Source: a virus. From it: a DNA stretch of 31,871 bases. The DNA lies in IMG/VR virus record IMGVR_UViG_3300020055_000091, positions 1 through 31,871 of that record. One strand, written 5' to 3'. The translations under genes were made by a program, and so were the position numbers. Of the stretch, positions 19,075 through 31,871 are shown piece after piece. The notes beneath the pieces were generated by a model, which saw only the letters and a program-made list of their open reading frames with translations, had not been told where the DNA came from and ran no database searches. How positions within the stretch are numbered: position 1 is the stretch's first letter; every line of letters begins with the position of its first letter.

Positions 19075-19647
19075 TTGGCTTTACTTATTAGTCACTTAAA
19101 CCACTGGGGTTTTATTCACATTCCCAAAACAGGTGGTACAACAATTTCGCACATATTACAATCAAATCATGACTGTGAGATAATCACGGGTCATGATTCT
19201 GTGCGAGCTTTTGATGGTAATAACTATTTTTTATTTACTTTTGTACGAAACCCATTTACGCGAATACAATCTGCATTTTATCATGGAGTAAGAAAGGGTT
19301 TATATAAAAATGATTTTTCAAACTTCCTATTAACCGCAAATCAAAATGATTTATGGCTTTTACCTCAAACTTATTTTATTAACGCAGGAAGAAATGAAAC
19401 AAATCAGATTAATTTTATTGGAAAGTATGAAAACTTTGAATCTGATTTAATTAAAGTTATGAAGAAAATTAATATAGAGGGATTTGAAATAACTCATTTA
19501 AACAAAAACCCTTTATATGATAGACAACCGAATCTAAACCAAGATAAATACTACAAACTTCTTTATGAAGAAGAATGGCAGAAAGACTGGGTTCGAGAAA
19601 GGTATAAAGATGATTTTAAACAATTTGACTATGAGTTGGAAATATAA
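19075..19647 (+). CDS. Sulfotransferase family protein (190 aa)
   Basis: A Sulfotransfer_2-type enzyme that would move sulfate from PAPS to a sugar hydroxyl. Visible: the 5'-phosphosulfate loop FIHIPKTGGTTISHIL (13-28, K18, T22/T23), a GH pair (ITGHDSVR, H40) and the 3'-phosphate motif FTFVRNPFTRIQSAFYH (R58, S66). At 190 residues it is at the short end of the family but has both PAPS motifs. No ATG precedes the motif; TTG 19075 is the best start and no good SD is seen. It is in frame with the upstream 61-residue gene across one TAA. The substrate is unknown; it may decorate phage or host surface glycans. Confidence 0.85.
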   Translation: MALLISHLNHWGFIHIPKTGGTTISHILQSNHDCEIITGHDSVRAFDGNNYFLFTFVRNPFTRIQSAFYHGVRKGLYKNDFSNFLLTANQNDLWLLPQTYFINAGRNETNQINFIGKYENFESDLIKVMKKINIEGFEITHLNKNPLYDRQPNLNQDKYYKLLYEEEWQKDWVRERYKDDFKQFDYELEI

Positions 19648-20080
19648 AGGAGATTACATAACAGAACTTGGAGATATGCCCGAAAATGTATTTGGGTTTA
19701 TTTACAAAATCACAAATTCTGAAACTGATGAATATTACATTGGTAAAAAACAAGTGGTTTCAGTTCGTAAAAGAAATTTCGGTAAAAAAGAAATTGCATT
19801 ACTTGAAGATAAAAGAGTAAAGAAATACGAGATGGTTACCAAAGAATCAGATTGGAAAACTTATCGTTCCTCAAATGATAAAGTAAAATCTTGGTTTGAA
19901 ACCGATGAAGGTAGGTCTAAGTGTAAATTAGAAATCCTTAGATTTTGTACCAACAAAAAATCACTTACTTATTATGAGTTACAAGAACAGTTTGCTCATG
20001 ATGTGCTTGGAGATGAGTTAGCATTAAATGATAATTTATTAGGCAAGTTTTTTAGAAAAGATTTGGAAATATCAGAATAA
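19610..20080 (+). CDS. GIY-YIG nuclease family protein
   Basis: The GIY-YIG core is clear: GFIYKITN (29-36) and EYYIGKKQ (41-48), then ESDWKTYRSSNDKV and a late YYELQEQFAHDVLGDELALN carrying the expected metal-site Glu. This kind is common in T4-like phages, some as free-standing homing endonucleases. The start is chosen as ATG 19610 because AAAGG lies 7 nt before it; ATG 19631 (MSWKYKG) is the alternative, and a longer frame from ATG 19565 lacks support. It overlaps the 3' end of the sulfotransferase gene by 38 nt and lies just before the primase promoter. It could be a homing nuclease or act in host DNA breakdown. Confidence 0.82.
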   Translation: MILNNLTMSWKYKGDYITELGDMPENVFGFIYKITNSETDEYYIGKKQVVSVRKRNFGKKEIALLEDKRVKKYEMVTKESDWKTYRSSNDKVKSWFETDEGRSKCKLEILRFCTNKKSLTYYELQEQFAHDVLGDELALNDNLLGKFFRKDLEISE

Positions 20081-20111: not shown

Positions 20112-21053
20112 ATGCTTTCGCATCACGATAAACAACAAGTAGTAAATATACTTAACGAAGTATTAGGTTATGGAACTTCTATGAAAGGAGATGAACAGGC
20201 ACATCATTGTCCATTCTGTCATCACCACAAAAAGAAGTTACAAGTAAACCTACAAACTCAACAATGGCACTGTTGGGTATGTGATTCAAAAGGGAGAAAG
20301 ATTTCTTCGTTACTTAAAAGACTTCATGTAGATTCTCATAAACTGAAAAAGTTATATGAAATATATGGAGATGATTATGTAGTATATCAACAAGACACCG
20401 AAGAAGAAAAGGTAGAGTTGAGGTTACCTAAAGAATTTCAATCACTATTAAAAGAACCAAAAGGATTAAATCCCTTGTTCAGAAAGGTGAAAGAATATGC
20501 CGAAAAAAGAGGTATTACTCACGAAGATATTATCAGATATAATATTGGGTATTGTGATGGTGGTTTGTATGCCAATCGCATTATTATTCCTAGTTATGAT
20601 TCTGATAATAGACTCAATTACTTCATCGCACGGAGTGTATATGATGAGGAAAAATTTAAATACAAAAATCCACCGGTTTCAAAAAATGTTATCATGTTTG
20701 AAAACCAAATAAATTGGAACGAACCAATTACCTTAGTAGAGGGAGTATTTGATGCTATGGCAGTGAAGCGAAATGTAATCCCTCTACTTGGTAAGTTTGT
20801 ACCAAAAAAATTAAGTGATAGTATATATAAAGAAGGAGTTTCTAAAATCAATATATTACTCGATGAAGACGCTCAAGAACAAGCGTTACGATACACTATA
20901 CAATTTCAGAATAATGGAATTGAAACTACTAACATTAAACCTCAAGAAAAAGATGCTTCGGATATGGGATTTGAAAATGTTAATCAACTTTTAAAACAAA
21001 CCAAAAAAACAGAGTTTAGTGATATTATATCACAAAAATTATTAGGTTTATGA
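20112..21053 (+). CDS. 61: DNA primase (T4 gp61 / DnaG-type)
   Basis: A 313-residue primase, near the size of T4 gp61 (342 aa), which makes RNA primers for lagging-strand synthesis with a replicative helicase. The N-terminal zinc ribbon shows HHCPFCHHHKK and WHCWVCDSKG (C33, C36, C54, C57). The catalytic core has RIIIPSYDSDNRLNYFIARS, then the Toprim motifs TLVEGVFDAMAVKR (E210) and ILLDEDAQEQA (D251, D253), and a later KDASD motif (about 280-284). It is the first gene of a replication/recombination cassette behind a Bacteroidota-like promoter. The stop overlaps the next start by 4 nt (ATGA), so translation is coupled. No helicase gene is in the window. Confidence 0.92.
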   Translation: MLSHHDKQQVVNILNEVLGYGTSMKGDEQAHHCPFCHHHKKKLQVNLQTQQWHCWVCDSKGRKISSLLKRLHVDSHKLKKLYEIYGDDYVVYQQDTEEEKVELRLPKEFQSLLKEPKGLNPLFRKVKEYAEKRGITHEDIIRYNIGYCDGGLYANRIIIPSYDSDNRLNYFIARSVYDEEKFKYKNPPVSKNVIMFENQINWNEPITLVEGVFDAMAVKRNVIPLLGKFVPKKLSDSIYKEGVSKINILLDEDAQEQALRYTIQFQNNGIETTNIKPQEKDASDMGFENVNQLLKQTKKTEFSDIISQKLLGL

Positions 21054-22186
21054 TTCATGTAATTCCACACCACATAGCAGTAGGTTCATACACACGATGG
21101 TATGATATGATTGAATTCGAAGGACCAGTAACTTTTTATGAGTTTGATAATAAAGAAGAAATTGAAAGAAAACTTTTAGGAGAACCTCCATATGAAGATG
21201 AACTTTTAAAACATCTAGAAGTTATAAAACCAAAAACCACCGATGTAATTTTTTTTGATTACAAATATCTTTACAATTATCATAACATAGCGTTACACAA
21301 TAAATTACAAGAATTATCAAGAAAAAATAATAACTGTAAACTTGTTGCCTTTGATGATGATAATGCTACACCATATGATGATGATGAGAGATTTACAATA
21401 TTTTCAAATATATTTCAAGTAGAAGTTGAAAATGGAAAAATAATCAAACTACCAGAAAATTGTAACTATTATCGATATAGGGCTTCAAAACAAGAGTATT
21501 TTCCACATCTAGAATATTTAGTTGAAACTTTTAAATTAAACATTAGACAAAAAAAATGTAACTTAATCATTGGTGTTGATAAATTAGAACGATTAGAAAT
21601 ATTTAAATATTTTCATAATATAGGTTTAACTAAAGATAGTTATGTTGGATATAGTGGATTTACATCTACATACGATGATTCTGAATTAAGTGATTCGTTA
21701 ATCAAATTTAAAAAAGATAATATCCCAACTATATTAGACACCCCATTTTGGATGAGTGAAATGGGTTCGGTGAATGTAGAAATTCCGCCACTTCCTTTTA
21801 CAATGAATTCTTACTTTAGTTGTATTTTAGAAACACAAATACTTCTTGGTAATTACGTTCATCTAAGTGAAAAATCTTGGAATCCATTTCTATCAAAAAA
21901 TATACCTTTAATTCTTGGAAGTACTTATATAAATTTATATTTACAAGAAATTGGTTTCTGGTTGGCTGATGATTTATTTGATTTATCACCAAAAGAAACT
22001 AGAAGTGATATATTAAATCAATACAAGAAAAATTTAGATGTTATAAATAAAATGACACTAAATGAAATTCACGAATATTATCGTAAAAACATTCAAAAAA
22101 TAGATAGAAACTTTGAAATGATGAAACAGGCAAAATTCTTTTATAATGTCTCTAACTACAAATCATTAAAAAAAAGGATTCATTGA
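21050..22186 (+). CDS. Putative glycosyltransferase, GT10/fucosyltransferase-like C-terminus (378 aa)
   Basis: The best clue is at about 260-313: FSCILETQILLGNYVHLSEK, then SWNPFLSKNIPLILGSTYIN, then LQEIGFWLADDLFDLS. This follows the E-K-x-[WF]-x-P-[FL] ... P-[IL]-[IL]-G ... GF pattern of GT10-type sugar transferases and of many marine phage hypothetical proteins. The N-terminal half (IHVIPHHIAVGSYTRWYDM, then TTDVIFFDYKYLY) looks like a Rossmann-type alpha/beta fold but has no motif I can name. The ATG overlaps the primase stop. No membrane or signal segment is seen, so it is probably cytoplasmic. With the nearby sulfotransferase it may belong to a glycan-modifying set; donor and acceptor are unknown. 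Confidence 0.6.
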   Translation: MIHVIPHHIAVGSYTRWYDMIEFEGPVTFYEFDNKEEIERKLLGEPPYEDELLKHLEVIKPKTTDVIFFDYKYLYNYHNIALHNKLQELSRKNNNCKLVAFDDDNATPYDDDERFTIFSNIFQVEVENGKIIKLPENCNYYRYRASKQEYFPHLEYLVETFKLNIRQKKCNLIIGVDKLERLEIFKYFHNIGLTKDSYVGYSGFTSTYDDSELSDSLIKFKKDNIPTILDTPFWMSEMGSVNVEIPPLPFTMNSYFSCILETQILLGNYVHLSEKSWNPFLSKNIPLILGSTYINLYLQEIGFWLADDLFDLSPKETRSDILNQYKKNLDVINKMTLNEIHEYYRKNIQKIDRNFEMMKQAKFFYNVSNYKSLKKRIH

Positions 22187-22202: not shown

Positions 22203-25200
22203 ATGGTTATAAACAAAATTTATCATTTGGCAGATTTACATATTAGAAATCTCCAAAGACATAAAGAATACAGACAAGTATTTAAAAAGTTTTTAAAACA
22301 AGTTAAAGAAGATAAAATTGAGGATTCTGTAATTTATATCGGTGGTGATATTGCTCATGCAAAAACAGAAATGTCACCAGAACTTGTACAAGAAATATCG
22401 TGGTTCTTAACAGAATGTTCAAAATTAAGAGAAACTATCTTAATCACAGGTAACCACGATTGTAACTTAAATAATTCACATAGATTAGATGTACTTACTC
22501 CAATTATTGAAAATCTTAAAAACCCTCGTATTCATTACCTTCGAGATACTGGTGTTTACAATATCCACAATCTTACTTTTGTTGTTTACTCCATTCTTGA
22601 TAATAAAGAGAACTGGCCATCGGGATATGATGTAGAGGGAGAACATAAGATTGCTTTATTTCATGGGCCAGTAAATAAATCACAAACTGATATTGGATAT
22701 ACCGTATCTTCAAATTCATTTACAACAGATATGTTTGATGGATTTGATATGGTATTGATGGGTGATATTCATAAAAGACAGATTTTACAAGCATACGAAC
22801 CTGATAATGGATTACCTGTAATTTCATATTGTGGTTCAATGATTCAACAAAATCATGGTGAGGTTTTAGAAAATCATGGTTATTTACTTTGGGATGTTCC
22901 AACAAGAAGTTATGAAGAATTTGATATTCATAATGATTATGGGTTCTTAACTGTCGATGTAGTTGATGGTAAAATTCCACAATGGGTTTATGATGAGGTT
23001 GGCACAAAACTTCCAAAGTATCCAAGATTAAGATTAAGGTTTACCAATACCGAACCAAGTGATATGAAACTTCGTATCACCGAATTGAAAAAATTATTTA
23101 AGGTTGCAGAAGTTACGGTAACGAGAACAGATACAATCGGTCAATTAAAGACTAATACCAAAGTAAATAAAAATATTGTTGGTGATGTTAAAGATGAAAC
23201 CTTCCAAAACTCACTTATTAGAGATTACTTAGAAAGACAATACCTTCTAGAATCAGAAGAATTGGATAAGATTGCAGAAATCAACAAAGAGTTAAATACC
23301 CAAATAGATAATTCAGATATTGCCGGTAACATTCTTTGGACACCAAAAGAATTCCAATTCTCTAATATGTTCTCTTATGGAGAAGATAATAAAGTAAGAT
23401 TTGATAAAGCACAAGGTATTGTTGGTATCTTTGCTCCTAATGCTTCAGGTAAATCTTCACTCTTTGATGCATTATCTTTTTGTATCTACGATAAGAACTC
23501 AAGAACTCATATTGCTAAGAACATTTTAAACAATCGTAAGAGTACTTTCTATTGTAAGTTTAACTTTGAGATTGATGGAGTGGATTACTTCATTGAACGA
23601 ACTGCTAAGTATGTTAGAAAACAAACAGCAGTAAAGGTTGATGTCAACTTTTGGTCAGAACAAGGTGGTATTATCACTTCACTCAATGGAGAACAAAGAA
23701 GAGAAACCAATGCTAATATTGAAAAGTATTTAGGTAAGTTTGAGGACTTTGTTTTAACTGCACTATCCCTACAAGGAAACAACGCACTCTTTATTGATAA
23801 ATCACAAACAGAAAGAAAAGAAATCCTTTCTCAATTTATTGGTGTAGATATCTTTGATAAATTATATCAAAAGGCTGCAGATGAGAATCGCGATAATGCA
23901 ACACTTATCAGAAAATTCAAGTCAGATGATTTTACGACTAAACTTGCCGACATTGAAACTCAACTTAAAACCGACAAAAATGAGTACAAACTCTTAGAAT
24001 TAAATCAAAAATCTCTGAAGGAGGAAGAAGATTTATTAAACAGACAAATCATTAAACTAAATGAGAAAATTGTAAAGTTAAATGCCGATAGTGGAGTTTC
24101 TGTTGATGAATTAGAAGACAGATATTCAATTCTCGTAGAAAAGAAAAAAGAAATTGTTTTATCTAAATCATCTATTCAAGAACGAATTAATCATCGAGAA
24201 GAATTACAAATCACTTTGGATGAAATCCTTGACCAATTCGATGAAGAAGATTTAGAAGAAGGGATTGGTAAGTTAAAAGATACAAAAGAAACTTTACGAG
24301 ATGTAGAATCACAGATAGATAAGATAAAGTTAAAATTAGATTCTTTATATGAAAGGAAAGACCATTTAGATAAACACAAATACAATGAAGATTGTGATAT
24401 CTGCATGGAAAACTCTCAAACCATCTTAGAACAAAAAGAAAAGGTAGAATCTGGTATTAAAGAACACGAAGTTGAATTTAAATCAGCAGATGAAGAGAGA
24501 TTGATGGTCAATTTATTAATTGATTCTTTAAAAGGATATGAAGAAGAGTGGGATAAATTTCAAGATGCTAAAGATAAAGAAGATAAACTTGATAGAGAAA
24601 TTTCTCAACTTATCAACAAGTTATCGACAACCGAAACCGAAGAAATTAGATTAGAAACTCAAATCATTCAACTTGAACAGTTGATTGAAGAGTATTATAA
24701 GAACGAAGAGCAGATAAAGAAGAATAAGGAAATTAGAGAAGAAATTACAGGTGTTCGTGATAAACTGAAAATTGTTAAAGATGATTTGAAATCTGTAAAT
24801 GGTGATATTCTTAAATTGAATGGTAAAATTTCTGCTCTACAAAATCAAAAAGAAACTATTGAGGGTAGAATTGAAGAAGTTAAAGATTTAGAAGAACAAT
24901 CTAAGTTATTTGATTATTATCTAAATGCTCTTTCCAAAGATGGTGTAAGTTACGAACTCATTGAAAAATCACTTCCAATGATTGAAGGTGAGGTAAATAA
25001 TATCCTTGCACAAATCGTAGAATTTGGAATGCAATTAGAAATGGATGGTAAGAACATCAATGCCTACTTAGTTTATGGAGACCAAAAATGGTCTTTGGAA
25101 ATGTGTAGTGGTATGGAACGATTTATTTCTGGTCTTGCAATCCGAGTTGCGTTAATCAATGTATGTAATCTACCAAGACCTAATTTCCTTGTAATTGACG

Positions 25201-25379
25201 AAGGTTTTGGTACTTTGGATAGTGAGAACCTACAATCTTTATTTATGTTGTTTACATACCTTAAAACTCAGTTTGACTTCGTAATGGTAATTTCACACAT
25301 CGATTCAATGCGAGATGTAGTAGATGGTCTTATCGAGATTAAGAAAACACCAGAAGGATTTTCACAAGTTAAGTTTTAA
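22203..25379 (+). CDS. 47-46: Fused Mre11-Rad50 (gp47-gp46 / SbcD-SbcC type) recombination protein, single chain
   Basis: One 1058-residue chain holds both subunits of the DNA-end processing complex. Residues 1-340 are the Mre11/gp47 nuclease: HLADLH (D11, H13), GGDIAH (D49), GNHD (84-86), FHGP (H154) and GDIHKRQ (H190) form the metal-binding set. After a helical linker (about 335-376), Rad50/gp46 starts with APNASGKSS (411-419, Walker A, first Gly replaced by Ala). Two long coils flank a zinc hook CDIC (C731, C734). Then come the signature MCSGME (S969, G970), Walker B NFLVIDEGFGTLD (D999, E1000) and H-loop ISHID (H1032). In T4 and cellular systems these are normally separate proteins. The start has no clear SD. 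Confidence 0.93.
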   Translation: MVINKIYHLADLHIRNLQRHKEYRQVFKKFLKQVKEDKIEDSVIYIGGDIAHAKTEMSPELVQEISWFLTECSKLRETILITGNHDCNLNNSHRLDVLTPIIENLKNPRIHYLRDTGVYNIHNLTFVVYSILDNKENWPSGYDVEGEHKIALFHGPVNKSQTDIGYTVSSNSFTTDMFDGFDMVLMGDIHKRQILQAYEPDNGLPVISYCGSMIQQNHGEVLENHGYLLWDVPTRSYEEFDIHNDYGFLTVDVVDGKIPQWVYDEVGTKLPKYPRLRLRFTNTEPSDMKLRITELKKLFKVAEVTVTRTDTIGQLKTNTKVNKNIVGDVKDETFQNSLIRDYLERQYLLESEELDKIAEINKELNTQIDNSDIAGNILWTPKEFQFSNMFSYGEDNKVRFDKAQGIVGIFAPNASGKSSLFDALSFCIYDKNSRTHIAKNILNNRKSTFYCKFNFEIDGVDYFIERTAKYVRKQTAVKVDVNFWSEQGGIITSLNGEQRRETNANIEKYLGKFEDFVLTALSLQGNNALFIDKSQTERKEILSQFIGVDIFDKLYQKAADENRDNATLIRKFKSDDFTTKLADIETQLKTDKNEYKLLELNQKSLKEEEDLLNRQIIKLNEKIVKLNADSGVSVDELEDRYSILVEKKKEIVLSKSSIQERINHREELQITLDEILDQFDEEDLEEGIGKLKDTKETLRDVESQIDKIKLKLDSLYERKDHLDKHKYNEDCDICMENSQTILEQKEKVESGIKEHEVEFKSADEERLMVNLLIDSLKGYEEEWDKFQDAKDKEDKLDREISQLINKLSTTETEEIRLETQIIQLEQLIEEYYKNEEQIKKNKEIREEITGVRDKLKIVKDDLKSVNGDILKLNGKISALQNQKETIEGRIEEVKDLEEQSKLFDYYLNALSKDGVSYELIEKSLPMIEGEVNNILAQIVEFGMQLEMDGKNINAYLVYGDQKWSLEMCSGMERFISGLAIRVALINVCNLPRPNFLVIDEGFGTLDSENLQSLFMLFTYLKTQFDFVMVISHIDSMRDVVDGLIEIKKTPEGFSQVKF

Positions 25380-25618: not shown

Positions 25619-28600
25619 ATGGCTATAATAAAAAAATATTCACCTTTTCAAAATTTATCTAACTATCAAACTTTTTTGATAGATACAAATCCTAATTCAA
25701 GATATTTTAGAATTACCGAATTTAAAGATACTTTTACAGGTGGTAAAAATGGGTTCTTAATTGAGGGTTCGGAGCATCTAAAAGAAACAACCGAAGTTAA
25801 GATTGAAATTCTAGATGTTGAAGGTAATACTATATATTTTGAACCAGGTGAAGGTATACCCGAATACTATGAAGGTCTTTCTAAATTAGTTGCTGTTCAT
25901 GTTTATGATGATACTCCTATTGGGATAGCAAAAATAACAGTTCTTGGTGAACTTAAAAGTTATGTAGATTCTCAAGGTGTTGTAAGAACAATACCAGATG
26001 ATTGGAAAGGTGTTTACAATGTTAAGTGGGAAAAAGAATTTAAAGTAAACAAAAATCTTGTAAATGAAGATATTGTTCGTTTTTACAAAAGACCACAAAT
26101 AACAATTACCGAATTAATAAAACCAATATTTTCAAAAACAATACCAAGTGCTACCGATGTTGTTGAAGTTAGTGGGGTGCCTCAAAATCCACCATTAGAT
26201 ACTAATTTAACAAATTGGAGGGCGGGTACAAATTATAAATTAATTCGTGCAACTGGTTCTTGGGATAGAGATGTTGATGAAAATATAATAACAATTTCTT
26301 CGCTTAATTATTCACCAACAATAATTGAAGTTTTAAACGATACTGAAGTTTTAGTTGATGTTCCATATAGTGTAGGTGGTTTAGTCAAATCATTTGTATC
26401 ACAATCCGCATCAGTAACATATTCTGATTTTAATAACCAAGTAATAGCAGATTCTGCACTAACTGGTTCTTTTGCAAAAATTGATATGTCTCAACTAAAG
26501 ACTTTTGTTGGAGATGTTGCAAGAGTTAAAATATTTAGAAAATCAAAAAACACTGCAGGTGATTTTCAATTCGTTCAAGAATCAAAATTAGAATCAACAG
26601 AATTACTTAGAGATGTAACTACCCAAACTGATAATGAAATATCCTATGGTAATTTTACAGAAACTAATTTATCAACTTATTGGGAAACCTCTTCTAATGA
26701 CCACCCAACTTCAATTGATTCTTCTTTATTATCTCAAGCTGTAAAAGTTGATTATAATAATGTATTGGGTGGAACACAAAGATTAATAACTTCTGAATCG
26801 TTTTCTTTATCAAAAGATGTAGAATATACCCTTTCGTTTAAAACTCTTTTAAATGGTACTGCTACAACGGATAAATACATCAAAGCATACTTTAGTGGTT
26901 CTTATACAAATAATTTAGGAAATCCTGCATCATTTACTCAGTCATTTATGACGGTAAGTGGTTCGGCAATATATAATACAAGACAAAATGTATCTCAAAA
27001 TATTCTTGCAGAACGAGATATAGATGCAAAGTTAGTTTTAGAGTTTAAAGGTGATGATTGGTATGCTTCGAGTATATCTTTGAAAAATGCACAAGAAACA
27101 TCTTTTTCACCAGATGAATTTATCTTAATACAAGATATACCAAGAAAACTCGCAGCAGAAACTTTTGATTTTAGATTTGAGTTTTATGATATAAATAACA
27201 ATTATATTCCTGTTGATGTAACCGCAACCGCAACATTTACAGGTGGTAATGATTTTCCATCAAGTGGTAAAATTTTAACTTTTGAATCAGATAGAAATGC
27301 ATTTAGATTTTCAACTGGTTCGATTGCTAATCCATATAATCAAACAATACAATTTAAAACAACTACACAAAACTTAACTGGTTCAATATTATTTGAATCA
27401 CAAGCATTTGATGTTGATGGTAATTATTTATCACCAAGTAACTATTCACAATATCCTGGTCTTTTAACAAATATAACTACGGCAGGTGCATTACTAACAC
27501 TTAACAATTTTACAGGTTCATATAGTGGAGTCGGAACTCCACCTTATGTTGGTTCTATTGTTTATACTGCCTCGTTAGAAACCTTACAAGAATTTGAAAC
27601 TGTATATCGTTTAGAAGATGGTGATAACGCACCAGCATTGATTGTAACTTCAAATGCAAATCAGTTTATTTATGAACCAAGTAAACTTATACCAAAACCA
27701 AGTGGTCAAGCAATTACAGTTCGTGCACAAAGAAAAAATCTTGCATCACTAATTACACCAATAGAGGTTAATAGTGGTAGTAACTTACCTCCATTAACGT
27801 ATGTAAGTACAACAAATGGAGTTGATACTTATACAATTTCTGCAACTGAATTTTCTCAATCATTTGCTGCAAATAATTTTGATGAAGTAACTTATTCATT
27901 TACGGGTTCGGATGTATTTGGAAATAATCAAACTGATGAGATTACACTTTCAAAAGTTGTTAATTTTGATGCGGTTTCTTTTGTTCTATCAAATGAATCA
28001 ACTTCATTTCCAGCGAATTCAATTGGGGTAGTAACAGGTGGATTTAGTGCATCAAGTGGTTCGGTTAGAATGTTTATTGGTAGTAATGAAATTCCATTTG
28101 ATGATTCTTTATCAAAGAATACATTTGAAATCACCAACTTACAAGGAACAAATTGTACTCCAAATGGAGGACAAGGTTCAGACCCAACTACTAATGAATA
28201 TGGTATAACAGCAATGAGTGCAGATGAAGCAGCTCTTGCGGTAACAGTAACTTACAAGGCAGGTGATAATTCTACAACTCAATCATTTGATAAATTAGTA
28301 ACTTATAATAAGGCCAAAAAAGCACAACCAAGTATTACTTTTAGTGTAACTCCACAGGCTCAAACTGTATCTGCTAAATCTACTGGTGGTTTAATTGGAA
28401 CAATAACCGATGTGCAGGTTCTTGGATTTGAAGGAAATACGACTTTAACTTATAATCAAGGTACTCTTTCTCCAGGACAATATAAAATCACAGATGTAAC
28501 TGGTGTAACTGCCTCAGATACAACTCCAAGTACATCTACAATTGATATAACAACTTTTAGTGGAGATGATGTAACTGGTACTGCTACTATTGAATATCGA

Positions 28601-31600
28601 GATAGTGAAGGTACAAGTGGAACATCTAGTATTAAATTTAGTTTATCAAAAGCCAAAAAAGCTGCACCAAGTGTATTAACAAAAATATCACCATCAACTC
28701 AAACAATTAACTCAAGTTCGGCTGGATTTGAAACTCCACAAAATGTAGAAGTAATTGTATTAGAGGGGGGTGTAGAATATACCTATGATGATTCACTATC
28801 AAGTGGTGGTGATTCAAATGCTCAGAAATTTAGAATTATAGATATAGTATCTGGTTCACAAGTTGGTACAAGTCAATTTATTACACCAACAACACAATCA
28901 ATAGCAACTTATAGTGGTACTAATGGTAATGTAACCATGTCCTATGTTGATTCGGAAGGTACTTATGTACAAAATAAAGTAGCAAGATTTGATGTATCGG
29001 TTTCTAAGACGGGTGTTGATGGTGACCCTGCTAAAGCAGTTCATTTAAAAACAGATAAATTCATAATCTTATATGATGAATATGGAAATGTAAGTGGTTC
29101 TAGTATAATTGGATTAACAGGTTCTGCACAAGGATATGATACTCCTGAATATGAGTTTAGACAAAATGATAATATTATCCGGGCATTTAGTACAATCAAT
29201 ACAATGGAAGTTCCAACCGATGGTGGGTCTTTACCCTCAAAAGATGGAACTGCATTTTTTGAAGTAAGAACACGAGAACAAGGTGAATCTTATACAAATG
29301 TAGATGATGAAGTAGAGGTATATGGTGTTGGTAAAGGAAGAAATTATTTAATATTTTTAACAAATGAAACACATAATTTCCCTGCAGATGAATTTGGTAA
29401 TCCAAAACCTGGTGCATTAGAAGCGGGTAGCACAGAAGTAAGATTTTATAAAATGGTAAACGATGTTTTAACAAAGTTTACTTATGACGGAACTGCACCA
29501 TATGGAGCTAACACATACAGAACAGGTTCAATTGACCCTGGTGATTATGAAAATATTACAGCATCTGGCTCATCGGTTGGTGATGATTTTAAATTAACAC
29601 CCACATCAGTTTCTTCAAATTTAGGTGGTTTTGAAATCCATCTTATCGATAATTCAGATTCAACTAATGCAGAATTTGATAGACAATTCACTTTTTCAAT
29701 AAATGAAGATGGAATTAAAAATAAAGATTTAGAAATTAAAATAAGTGATGGTGGTAATTTTATTAAACCAGAATCAGGTTCTGTTTGGTCACCGAGTGTA
29801 TTACAAATTGAAGGTGTTAAGCAAAATATCACAGGTTCGGTAAATTGGACTGCTGGATTTGATTTATATGACCAAGCAACTGGTGGTTCTACTACAACAA
29901 CTGGTGATATTGTTTACGCAAGATATTCAGATTTTGAAAGTTCTTTTAATAGTGGAACAGTAAACTTTCCAATAACTGCATCGGTAACAAATAGTGAAAA
30001 TTCCTTTGTATATACAGATTCGGATTCAATAAAAGTTTTACAAAATGGTAGTTCTGCTATAACGGTTGATGTAAGTAATCCTGTCGAAGATGTGAGTTCT
30101 ACAAACGGTGGTTTTGTAGATGATTATACTGATACGGGTACAGATATTCAAGTATTTCAAGGAGCAGATTTATTAACATTCACAACTGGTACGGCAGGAA
30201 ATGGTGAATATACAGTTTCTACTTCTATTAGTCCAGCTTCAGGAATCCAACTTGGTACTATTAGTGGTAATGGTACAACAACTTTTACTATTAGTGACCA
30301 TGATGATATAGACCAAGATGAAGATAAAGTTACCATTACTTATTCAATATCTGGTAAAAGATTTGATGGTAGTTCATTTACTACATCAGCTAAACAAAAA
30401 ATATTTAAAGTAAAAGATGGACCTGCAGGTATTAGTGCATTTTCAATTGAATTAGTACCACCATCACAAGAAGTAATTATTGATATACAAGATAACATTA
30501 CTACACCAGATACTTTTGCAGTACAAGTATTTGATACTTCTGGCAACTATTCTTATGATGCAGCTTTATCTACTGGTGCTACTTTTTATATAGATACTTT
30601 AGCACAATCTAATACGGGCACAACCCCAACCAATTCATCAGGAACAATTACTCCTGGAACTCCTAGTAACGCAAATGGAAGTAATGTAACTTTTAATGTT
30701 TATGTAAAAGGTAGAGATGGTAATACTTCGTCTGCAATTTCTAAAACTCATAAGATTAATGTAGTTGCTGATGGTTCAACTGGTCCTGGTATTGTTTTCA
30801 CAGGCGAGTGGGATACTGATAGAATTTATCAATATGATTTATCAAATGGTAGGAGAGATGCGGTACTTTATGATGGTGTTTATTACGCAACTTTACAACA
30901 AGCAGGGACTTCGATTGGTACTCCTGATACCGAATCAACTTATTGGGAAAGTTTGGGTACTGATTCGTTTTTTGTTGCAGCTGAAATCGGTATTTTTAAA
31001 CAATCTTATGTTCAAAATACTTTAAACATTGGTACAACATCAAGAACTGTATCTGCTGCAAATATTACACTTCATGGTGCCGACCAATATCCATACTTTT
31101 CATTAGGTCAGTCGGCGGATACTGGTTCTCAAGGATATGCAGTAGGAAGTGGTATTTTTATTGGTCGAGATACTGATGGAGATTATAAGGCATCGTTTGA
31201 ATCTGCTGGTTCAAATTATTTAAAATGGGATGGTGGAAAGTTACTAATTCAAGGGGATATCGACGCAACAAGTATTTCTGCAGATTCTGGTTCTATTGGT
31301 GGCTGGACATTAGCTACAAGTTATTTAGATGGTGATAGTATTAGACTTGAAAAAGGTGGAAATATCACGGTTGGTTCTTCTAATAATGTTGTAAGGTTAT
31401 CTTCAACTGATTCAACTTATAGAATATGGGCTGGGAATGCAACTGCAGCTAATGCAAATTTTAAAGTAACAACTGGTGGTGCTTTAACAGCAACTTCTGC
31501 AGATATAACTGGTGTAATTAACGCTACAAGTGGTAATTTTACTGGGTTTGTAACTGCAGGTACTAGTCCTCAAATGAAATTCGGTGTTGGCGTTGCAACG

Positions 31601-31871
31601 GGTAAAAATGGTATTCATATTGATGCAAATGATTATTGGTACTCTGATGGAAATTTCTCATTTGGAAATGGGGGTATAACTTGGAATAGTAGTACTTCTA
31701 CTTTAAATATCGCAGGTAGTGTAAATATTGGTAGTACTTCTGCATCTACTATTGAAGATAAAGCCAATAATGCACTTATTAGTGGTTCAGCTGCTAAAGA
31801 TATTAATGATAATACTACTACTATTAGTGGTGGTAAGATTACTACCGATTCTCTTAGTGCAAATCAAATTT
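25619..31871 (+). CDS. Giant multidomain tail-tip/fibre protein, 5' part (partial, more than 2084 aa)
   Basis: The frame is open from ATG 25619 (SD AGGAG) to the window end with no stop, so the C-terminus is missing. Residues 1-180 form an N-terminal domain, probably the virion anchor (YQTFLIDTNPNSRYFRITEF). A long series of beta sandwiches follows. Two Ig-like units are joined at KAKKAQPSI (898) and KAKKAAPSV (1011), a 113-residue period. At 1722-1781 a CBM5/12-like unit carries FTGEWDTDRIYQYD, YDGVYYATLQQAG and STYWESLG (W1731, W1776). From about 1785 the sequence resembles tail-tip proteins of the lambda gpJ type: SADSGSIGGWTLA (W1896), SGNFTG, and repeated ISGGKITTDSLSANQI-type turns. A receptor-contacting fibre or tip role is inferred. 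Confidence 0.85.
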   Translation, partial: MAIIKKYSPFQNLSNYQTFLIDTNPNSRYFRITEFKDTFTGGKNGFLIEGSEHLKETTEVKIEILDVEGNTIYFEPGEGIPEYYEGLSKLVAVHVYDDTPIGIAKITVLGELKSYVDSQGVVRTIPDDWKGVYNVKWEKEFKVNKNLVNEDIVRFYKRPQITITELIKPIFSKTIPSATDVVEVSGVPQNPPLDTNLTNWRAGTNYKLIRATGSWDRDVDENIITISSLNYSPTIIEVLNDTEVLVDVPYSVGGLVKSFVSQSASVTYSDFNNQVIADSALTGSFAKIDMSQLKTFVGDVARVKIFRKSKNTAGDFQFVQESKLESTELLRDVTTQTDNEISYGNFTETNLSTYWETSSNDHPTSIDSSLLSQAVKVDYNNVLGGTQRLITSESFSLSKDVEYTLSFKTLLNGTATTDKYIKAYFSGSYTNNLGNPASFTQSFMTVSGSAIYNTRQNVSQNILAERDIDAKLVLEFKGDDWYASSISLKNAQETSFSPDEFILIQDIPRKLAAETFDFRFEFYDINNNYIPVDVTATATFTGGNDFPSSGKILTFESDRNAFRFSTGSIANPYNQTIQFKTTTQNLTGSILFESQAFDVDGNYLSPSNYSQYPGLLTNITTAGALLTLNNFTGSYSGVGTPPYVGSIVYTASLETLQEFETVYRLEDGDNAPALIVTSNANQFIYEPSKLIPKPSGQAITVRAQRKNLASLITPIEVNSGSNLPPLTYVSTTNGVDTYTISATEFSQSFAANNFDEVTYSFTGSDVFGNNQTDEITLSKVVNFDAVSFVLSNESTSFPANSIGVVTGGFSASSGSVRMFIGSNEIPFDDSLSKNTFEITNLQGTNCTPNGGQGSDPTTNEYGITAMSADEAALAVTVTYKAGDNSTTQSFDKLVTYNKAKKAQPSITFSVTPQAQTVSAKSTGGLIGTITDVQVLGFEGNTTLTYNQGTLSPGQYKITDVTGVTASDTTPSTSTIDITTFSGDDVTGTATIEYRDSEGTSGTSSIKFSLSKAKKAAPSVLTKISPSTQTINSSSAGFETPQNVEVIVLEGGVEYTYDDSLSSGGDSNAQKFRIIDIVSGSQVGTSQFITPTTQSIATYSGTNGNVTMSYVDSEGTYVQNKVARFDVSVSKTGVDGDPAKAVHLKTDKFIILYDEYGNVSGSSIIGLTGSAQGYDTPEYEFRQNDNIIRAFSTINTMEVPTDGGSLPSKDGTAFFEVRTREQGESYTNVDDEVEVYGVGKGRNYLIFLTNETHNFPADEFGNPKPGALEAGSTEVRFYKMVNDVLTKFTYDGTAPYGANTYRTGSIDPGDYENITASGSSVGDDFKLTPTSVSSNLGGFEIHLIDNSDSTNAEFDRQFTFSINEDGIKNKDLEIKISDGGNFIKPESGSVWSPSVLQIEGVKQNITGSVNWTAGFDLYDQATGGSTTTTGDIVYARYSDFESSFNSGTVNFPITASVTNSENSFVYTDSDSIKVLQNGSSAITVDVSNPVEDVSSTNGGFVDDYTDTGTDIQVFQGADLLTFTTGTAGNGEYTVSTSISPASGIQLGTISGNGTTTFTISDHDDIDQDEDKVTITYSISGKRFDGSSFTTSAKQKIFKVKDGPAGISAFSIELVPPSQEVIIDIQDNITTPDTFAVQVFDTSGNYSYDAALSTGATFYIDTLAQSNTGTTPTNSSGTITPGTPSNANGSNVTFNVYVKGRDGNTSSAISKTHKINVVADGSTGPGIVFTGEWDTDRIYQYDLSNGRRDAVLYDGVYYATLQQAGTSIGTPDTESTYWESLGTDSFFVAAEIGIFKQSYVQNTLNIGTTSRTVSAANITLHGADQYPYFSLGQSADTGSQGYAVGSGIFIGRDTDGDYKASFESAGSNYLKWDGGKLLIQGDIDATSISADSGSIGGWTLATSYLDGDSIRLEKGGNITVGSSNNVVRLSSTDSTYRIWAGNATAANANFKVTTGGALTATSADITGVINATSGNFTGFVTAGTSPQMKFGVGVATGKNGIHIDANDYWYSDGNFSFGNGGITWNSSTSTLNIAGSVNIGSTSASTIEDKANNALISGSAAKDINDNTTTISGGKITTDSLSANQI

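Follow-up and report, generated by a model that had tools for sequence, protein, structure and literature searches.

The window analyzed here, the whole 31,871-nucleotide stretch (31.9 kb) of IMG/VR virus record IMGVR_UViG_3300020055_000091 from position 1 to position 31,871, carries an ORF of 1058 codons that runs from an ATG through a stop codon and encodes an Mre11 (SbcD) nuclease at its N-terminus and a zinc-hook Rad50 (SbcC) ATPase at its C-terminus (Table 1). The initial annotation had placed the nuclease and Rad50 motifs in one uninterrupted frame, and all the motifs that it named were found there. Based on Pfam searches, the product matched Metallophos (PF00149) over residues 5-191 (8e-9) and AAA_23 over residues 387-623 (3e-12); in PHROGs it matched the SbcD-like phrog_100 over residues 4-363 (6e-29) and the SbcC-like phrog_77 over residues 288-1056 (8e-51). 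The upstream genes encode tail and baseplate-type proteins (gp25-like and Baseplate_J-like), a sulfotransferase-like protein, a SegE-type GIY-YIG endonuclease and a DnaG-type primase. The carrier is a myovirus-like aquatic phage, tailed and equipped with baseplate genes. A large ORF downstream, at 25619-31871, has at least 2084 codons, belongs to no known family and runs past the end of the window; it is likely to encode a tail or fibre protein.

Table 1. Position of the Mre11-Rad50 fusion, its parts and the upstream primase gene in the window
Feature	Residues	Position	Strand	Basis
DnaG-type primase gene, upstream neighbour of the fusion		20112..21053	+	phrog_47, 1.9e-51
Fused Mre11-Rad50 (SbcD-SbcC) protein, 1058 aa		22203..25379	+	ORF, Pfam, PHROGs, relatives, structure model
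Mre11/SbcD phosphodiesterase (nuclease) domain	1-245	22203..22937	+	PF00149; model vs 7dog_B
Nuclease motif V, GDIH	187-190	22761..22772	+	Invariant in 43/43 relatives
Mre11 capping domain	about 246-310	22938..23132	+	Model secondary structure; alignment with 7dog
Predicted helix-loop-helix at the position of the Mre11 Rad50-binding domain	332-367	23196..23303	+	Model; alignment
Covalent Mre11/Rad50 linker	about 368-378	23304..23336	+	Coil in model; pN/pS 0.31
Rad50 ATPase N-lobe (Walker A, 411-418)	379-575	23337..23927	+	AAA_23; SbcC structure match
Coiled coil, arms of about 155 residues each	576-890	23928..24872	+	Helices in model
Zinc-hook CxxC (CDIC)	731-734	24393..24404	+	Both cysteines invariant
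Rad50 ATPase C-lobe (signature, Walker B, D-loop, H-loop)	891-1058	24873..25376	+	Motifs; structure match

The N-terminal half shows the metallophosphoesterase domain with motifs I to V that characterizes Mre11/SbcD proteins: DLH at residues 11-13, GGDIAH at 47-52, GNHD at 83-86, HGP at 154-156 and the GDIH of Table 1. GNHD, like GDIH, was unchanged across 43 aligned relatives. In the structural model, residues 4-309 matched the nuclease-plus-capping structure of SbcD (7dog_B) with a Z score of 23.3 and 3.3 A over 273 residues, and the predicted capping domain is followed by a predicted C-terminal helix-loop-helix. Two of the motifs depart from the usual form. Motif II ends in His, and in motif V an Asp replaces the first His of GHxH, which is GHFH in T4, S-CAM7 and SPO1 and GHIH in E. 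coli. Proteins other than fusions can have this Asp too: D12 of the T5-like phage Stubb carries GDLH. The changed metal ligand could alter catalysis. In six of the 43 fused relatives (L158:6001-9102 and five others) motif I reads DIQ instead of DxH, with loss of the usual metal-binding His.

The C-terminal half has the bipartite ABC head around a coiled coil with a CxxC hook that is typical of Rad50/SbcC. In addition to the Walker A and CDIC motifs, we located the CSGMER signature at residues 968-973, a Walker B with IDEG at 998-1001 and the H-loop at H1032. The hook cysteines, the GKS of Walker A and the DE of Walker B were unchanged across the 43 aligned relatives. When modelled, the two ATPase halves matched SbcC (7yzo_D) with a Z score of 27.8 and 3.5 A over 346 residues.

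The junction between the two halves was examined in an AlphaFold2 model built from 42 relatives (mean pLDDT 79). The placement of the domains relative to each other is uncertain in this model because its pTM is only 0.50. It predicts the nuclease, the cap, a low-confidence stretch at about residues 311-331, two helices at 332-347 and 351-367 (block pLDDT about 79-89), a coil at 368-378 and, from residue 379, the strand with which the Rad50 head begins. The initial annotation had described a linker of about 40 residues (335-376) between nuclease and ATPase. Most of that stretch is occupied by the predicted helix-loop-helix, and the part that stands as linker is a tether of about 11 residues. 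This length fits the estimate of 9 to 12 residues obtained by Yoshida et al. from a gap of 28 A in the Thermotoga complex (PMC3175470). Within the helix-loop-helix, Q335 is invariant among the aligned relatives and I339 and Y342 are nearly so; the element aligns opposite the C-terminal ends of T4 gp47, S-CAM7, SPO1 gp21.3 and E. coli SbcD. An HMM of the helix-loop-helix alone gave no significant match to split SbcD proteins. By position and predicted structure, it probably corresponds to the Rad50-binding domain that ends an ordinary Mre11.

Searches of viral contigs yielded 80 loci with a protein query and 80 more with an alignment query; together with three phage records they make up the 163 loci compared here, some of which are overlapping fetches of one contig. 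The fusion was complete from about residue 10 to residue 1040 in 133 of them. At least 588 IMG/VR stretches match the fusion family; this is the number confirmed as relatives among the first 600 candidates. By tblastn no fused plasmid protein was found, and the plasmid relatives consisted of short matches to the ATPase C-lobe at 29-34% identity.

Of the 163 loci, 161 have a relative of the primase gene near the fusion; for the large ORF downstream of it the number is 125. The 378-aa protein encoded between primase and fusion (21050-22186) had no Pfam, PHROG or NCBIfam match, and relatives of it occur in 35 of the 163 loci. Farther upstream, at 19075-20080, the sulfotransferase-like and the SegE-type GIY-YIG endonuclease ORFs share about 80 bases, which they read in different frames; the former has relatives in 67 loci and the latter in 110.

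We also looked for recombinases and for separate Mre11 and Rad50 subunits in the longer records of the family. Eight long genomes, namely seven virus records of the family that measure 237-289 kb and Microcystis phage Mel-JY01 (190 kb), each contained one RecA-like gene, so that in these relatives the fusion co-occurs with a RecA/UvsX-type recombinase. No RecA match was obtained in five family records of 123-165 kb, which may be fragments. In the eight genomes with a RecA-like gene, phrog_77 had no full-length match other than the fusion itself. Separate subunits went undetected in all the long family genomes but one, in a screen whose phrog_100 profile failed on several records known to carry the fusion and could likewise fail on a separate SbcD of divergent sequence. 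The fusion need not be the sole enzyme of its kind in a genome, because the 735 kb phage LR756501.1 (locus L004) has both a fused protein, of 1202 aa, and a separate SbcC-like gene at 670999-672753. The match to this separate gene reads through stop codons.

Taken together, the gene probably encodes a single-chain Mre11-Rad50 enzyme, locked at 1:1, that would act as a homodimer and process DNA ends when the phage replicates by recombination. The fixed 1:1 ratio, already proposed in the initial annotation, follows from the single chain. Two copies of the fusion would form a homodimer equivalent to Mre11(2)Rad50(2), in which the helix-loop-helix would bind the Rad50 coiled coil at its base, in the simplest case within the same chain, by way of the 11-residue tether. 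ATP bound by the paired Rad50 heads, together with recognition of a DNA end, would regulate access to the nuclease site, and the tips of the coiled coils would be held together by the zinc hook. By resection or by cleavage of hairpins or blocked ends, the enzyme could then feed the phage RecA-like recombinase, as gp46/gp47 do in T4, where their action in recombination-dependent replication is established (restated in PMC3175470). It may possibly also share in the breakdown of host DNA.

In another reading, the fusion serves mainly phage-host conflict, by degrading host DNA or meeting host defences, instead of phage replication. T4 gp46/gp47 are annotated as contributing to host DNA degradation too, and in a profile search the ATPase half matched LmuB of Lamassu (1.6e-31). 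However, such a match is expected from shared Rad50/SMC ancestry. An entire Mre11 half, the neighbouring primase gene and the one RecA of the long genomes point to replication and recombination, which makes a main role in conflict unlikely. Assignment to a defence system from the PADLOC matches (LmuB and JetC) was rejected for the same shared ATPase/SMC ancestry.

Alternatively, the fused chain could work as two parts, released by internal initiation or by cleavage near residues 368-389. The pN/pS ratios, which are comparative only because pS is high (0.55-0.71), were 0.19 for the nuclease, 0.12 for the cap, 0.16 for the helix-loop-helix, 0.31 for the linker, 0.19 and 0.12 for the two ATPase lobes and 0.35 for the coiled coil, the fastest-evolving part. 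The linker is thus about twice as free to change as the helix-loop-helix and is the least constrained stretch between both halves, as separation into two parts would have it. Yet selection against amino-acid change persists through the junction, no Shine-Dalgarno-like sequence was found at codons 300-400, and Met389, the only Met codon near the junction, would as a start drop the first strand of the ATPase lobe. An internal start at the junction was rejected because it has no ribosome-binding-like site, and we consider the two-part arrangement as a whole highly improbable.

The single chain itself is well established. Over query residues 150-450, one open frame was present in 162 of the 163 phage and viral loci (24-87% identity). 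According to the initial annotation, two separate genes would be revealed if relatives had a stop followed by a restart within residues 335-380; the relatives compared here showed none. The lone exception, L003, is broken in the nuclease domain at residue 193, away from the junction. A frame error at the junction is therefore excluded. Although sbcD and sbcC lie as separate genes in the same order in T4, SPO1, T5-like phages and E. coli, the chance that an assembly or sequencing error merged two such neighbours is negligible, given the identical frame in these independent contigs and a codon-level constraint unbroken across the junction. The ORF is a genuine and widely conserved Mre11-Rad50 fusion.

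The single-chain enzyme belongs to a kind known since 2011, when Yoshida, Claverie and Ogata described Mre11/Rad50 fusions, Mimivirus R555 and twelve others (PMC3175470). The carriers besides Mimivirus include five bacterial strains, in some of which the fusion lies on a plasmid, several eukaryotes and Bacillus phage 0305phi8-36 (PMC3175470). From metagenomes they inferred that aquatic phages carry many R555 homologues, often beside primase genes (PMC3175470). The initial annotation had called the fusion unusual. This holds against the textbook T4, SbcCD and MRN systems but not in general, since fusions were described in 2011 and the present family is so widespread in IMG/VR. Our literature search found no later paper specifically on phage fusions. 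As in R555, both domains lie in one chain with the nuclease first. According to its published description, R555 resembles the phage protein in linker length and also has the His of motif II (GDxxH) and an Asp for the first His of motif V (PMC3175470). The primase neighbour is a feature shared with the aquatic R555 homologues. In contrast, our fusion has 1058 aa and R555 1351, its coiled coil is shorter, and it comes from a tailed phage, not from a giant virus of eukaryotes. The nearest predicted viral structures are giant-virus repair proteins, first that of Tupanvirus (1379 aa, 26% identity, E 9e-74) and then those of Harvfovirus, Yasminevirus and Catovirus.

Comparison with the split systems showed the same domains, and presumably the same recombination role, in T4 gp47/gp46 and in the homologues of SPO1, T5-like phages and cyanophages. 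However, these are two chains, and identity with them is low, 14-20% in the nuclease and about 21-24% in the ATPase. SPO1 and Listeria phage LP-124 also have an SbcC gene near a primase gene. A 1009-aa entry in a viral structure library hinted at a Listeria phage fusion, a candidate that was discarded because the genes are separate in the relative LP-124. Solved structures of E. coli SbcCD and of Thermotoga or Methanocaldococcus Mre11-Rad50 match both halves of the fusion, but they too consist of two chains against one here; E. coli SbcC alone has 1048 aa, with much longer coiled coils, and motif V of its SbcD is GHIH. In trees of both domains, which compare 12 fused rows with 6 split ones and contain several long branches, one branch parts the fused from the split rows (ATPase 97/96, nuclease 83/90), a topology compatible with a single origin of the fusions. 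One could go further and suppose that the fusion arose once in a phage lineage and was later passed to giant eukaryotic viruses, and that a single-chain enzyme with two changed metal ligands, mechanistically unlike two-chain Mre11-Rad50, became standard in much of the aquatic virosphere. We regard this scenario as speculative and rather improbable.

Short scaffolds and reads were the form in which the abundant R555-like sequences of aquatic origin were known in 2011; these sequences now have a long genomic context. They occur as full-length fusions beside a primase gene in large phage contigs, and, with the one exception, in long genomes where separate subunits were not detected. To determine the structure of an intact complex of fixed stoichiometry, one could conveniently turn to a single-chain Mre11-Rad50 of this kind, which has about 1,050 aa and a short coiled coil.

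Two of the phage relatives deserve mention. Mel-JY01 (WWT39521.1) and the uncultured 484 kb phage LR756508, the source of L003, carry the same fusion at 37-40% identity with the same primase neighbour. The Mel-JY01 protein is annotated merely as 'AAA domain containing protein', and our literature search found no paper on this phage. In LR756508, unlike in the window, the nuclease half is interrupted. No group I intron was found in the insertion with Rfam. The inserted ORF, of 305 aa (L003:8671-9588), is HNH-endonuclease-like (phrog_1271, 3.5e-15, with a TnsA-like match) and lies immediately behind the GDIHKRQ motif, where it splits the fusion gene.
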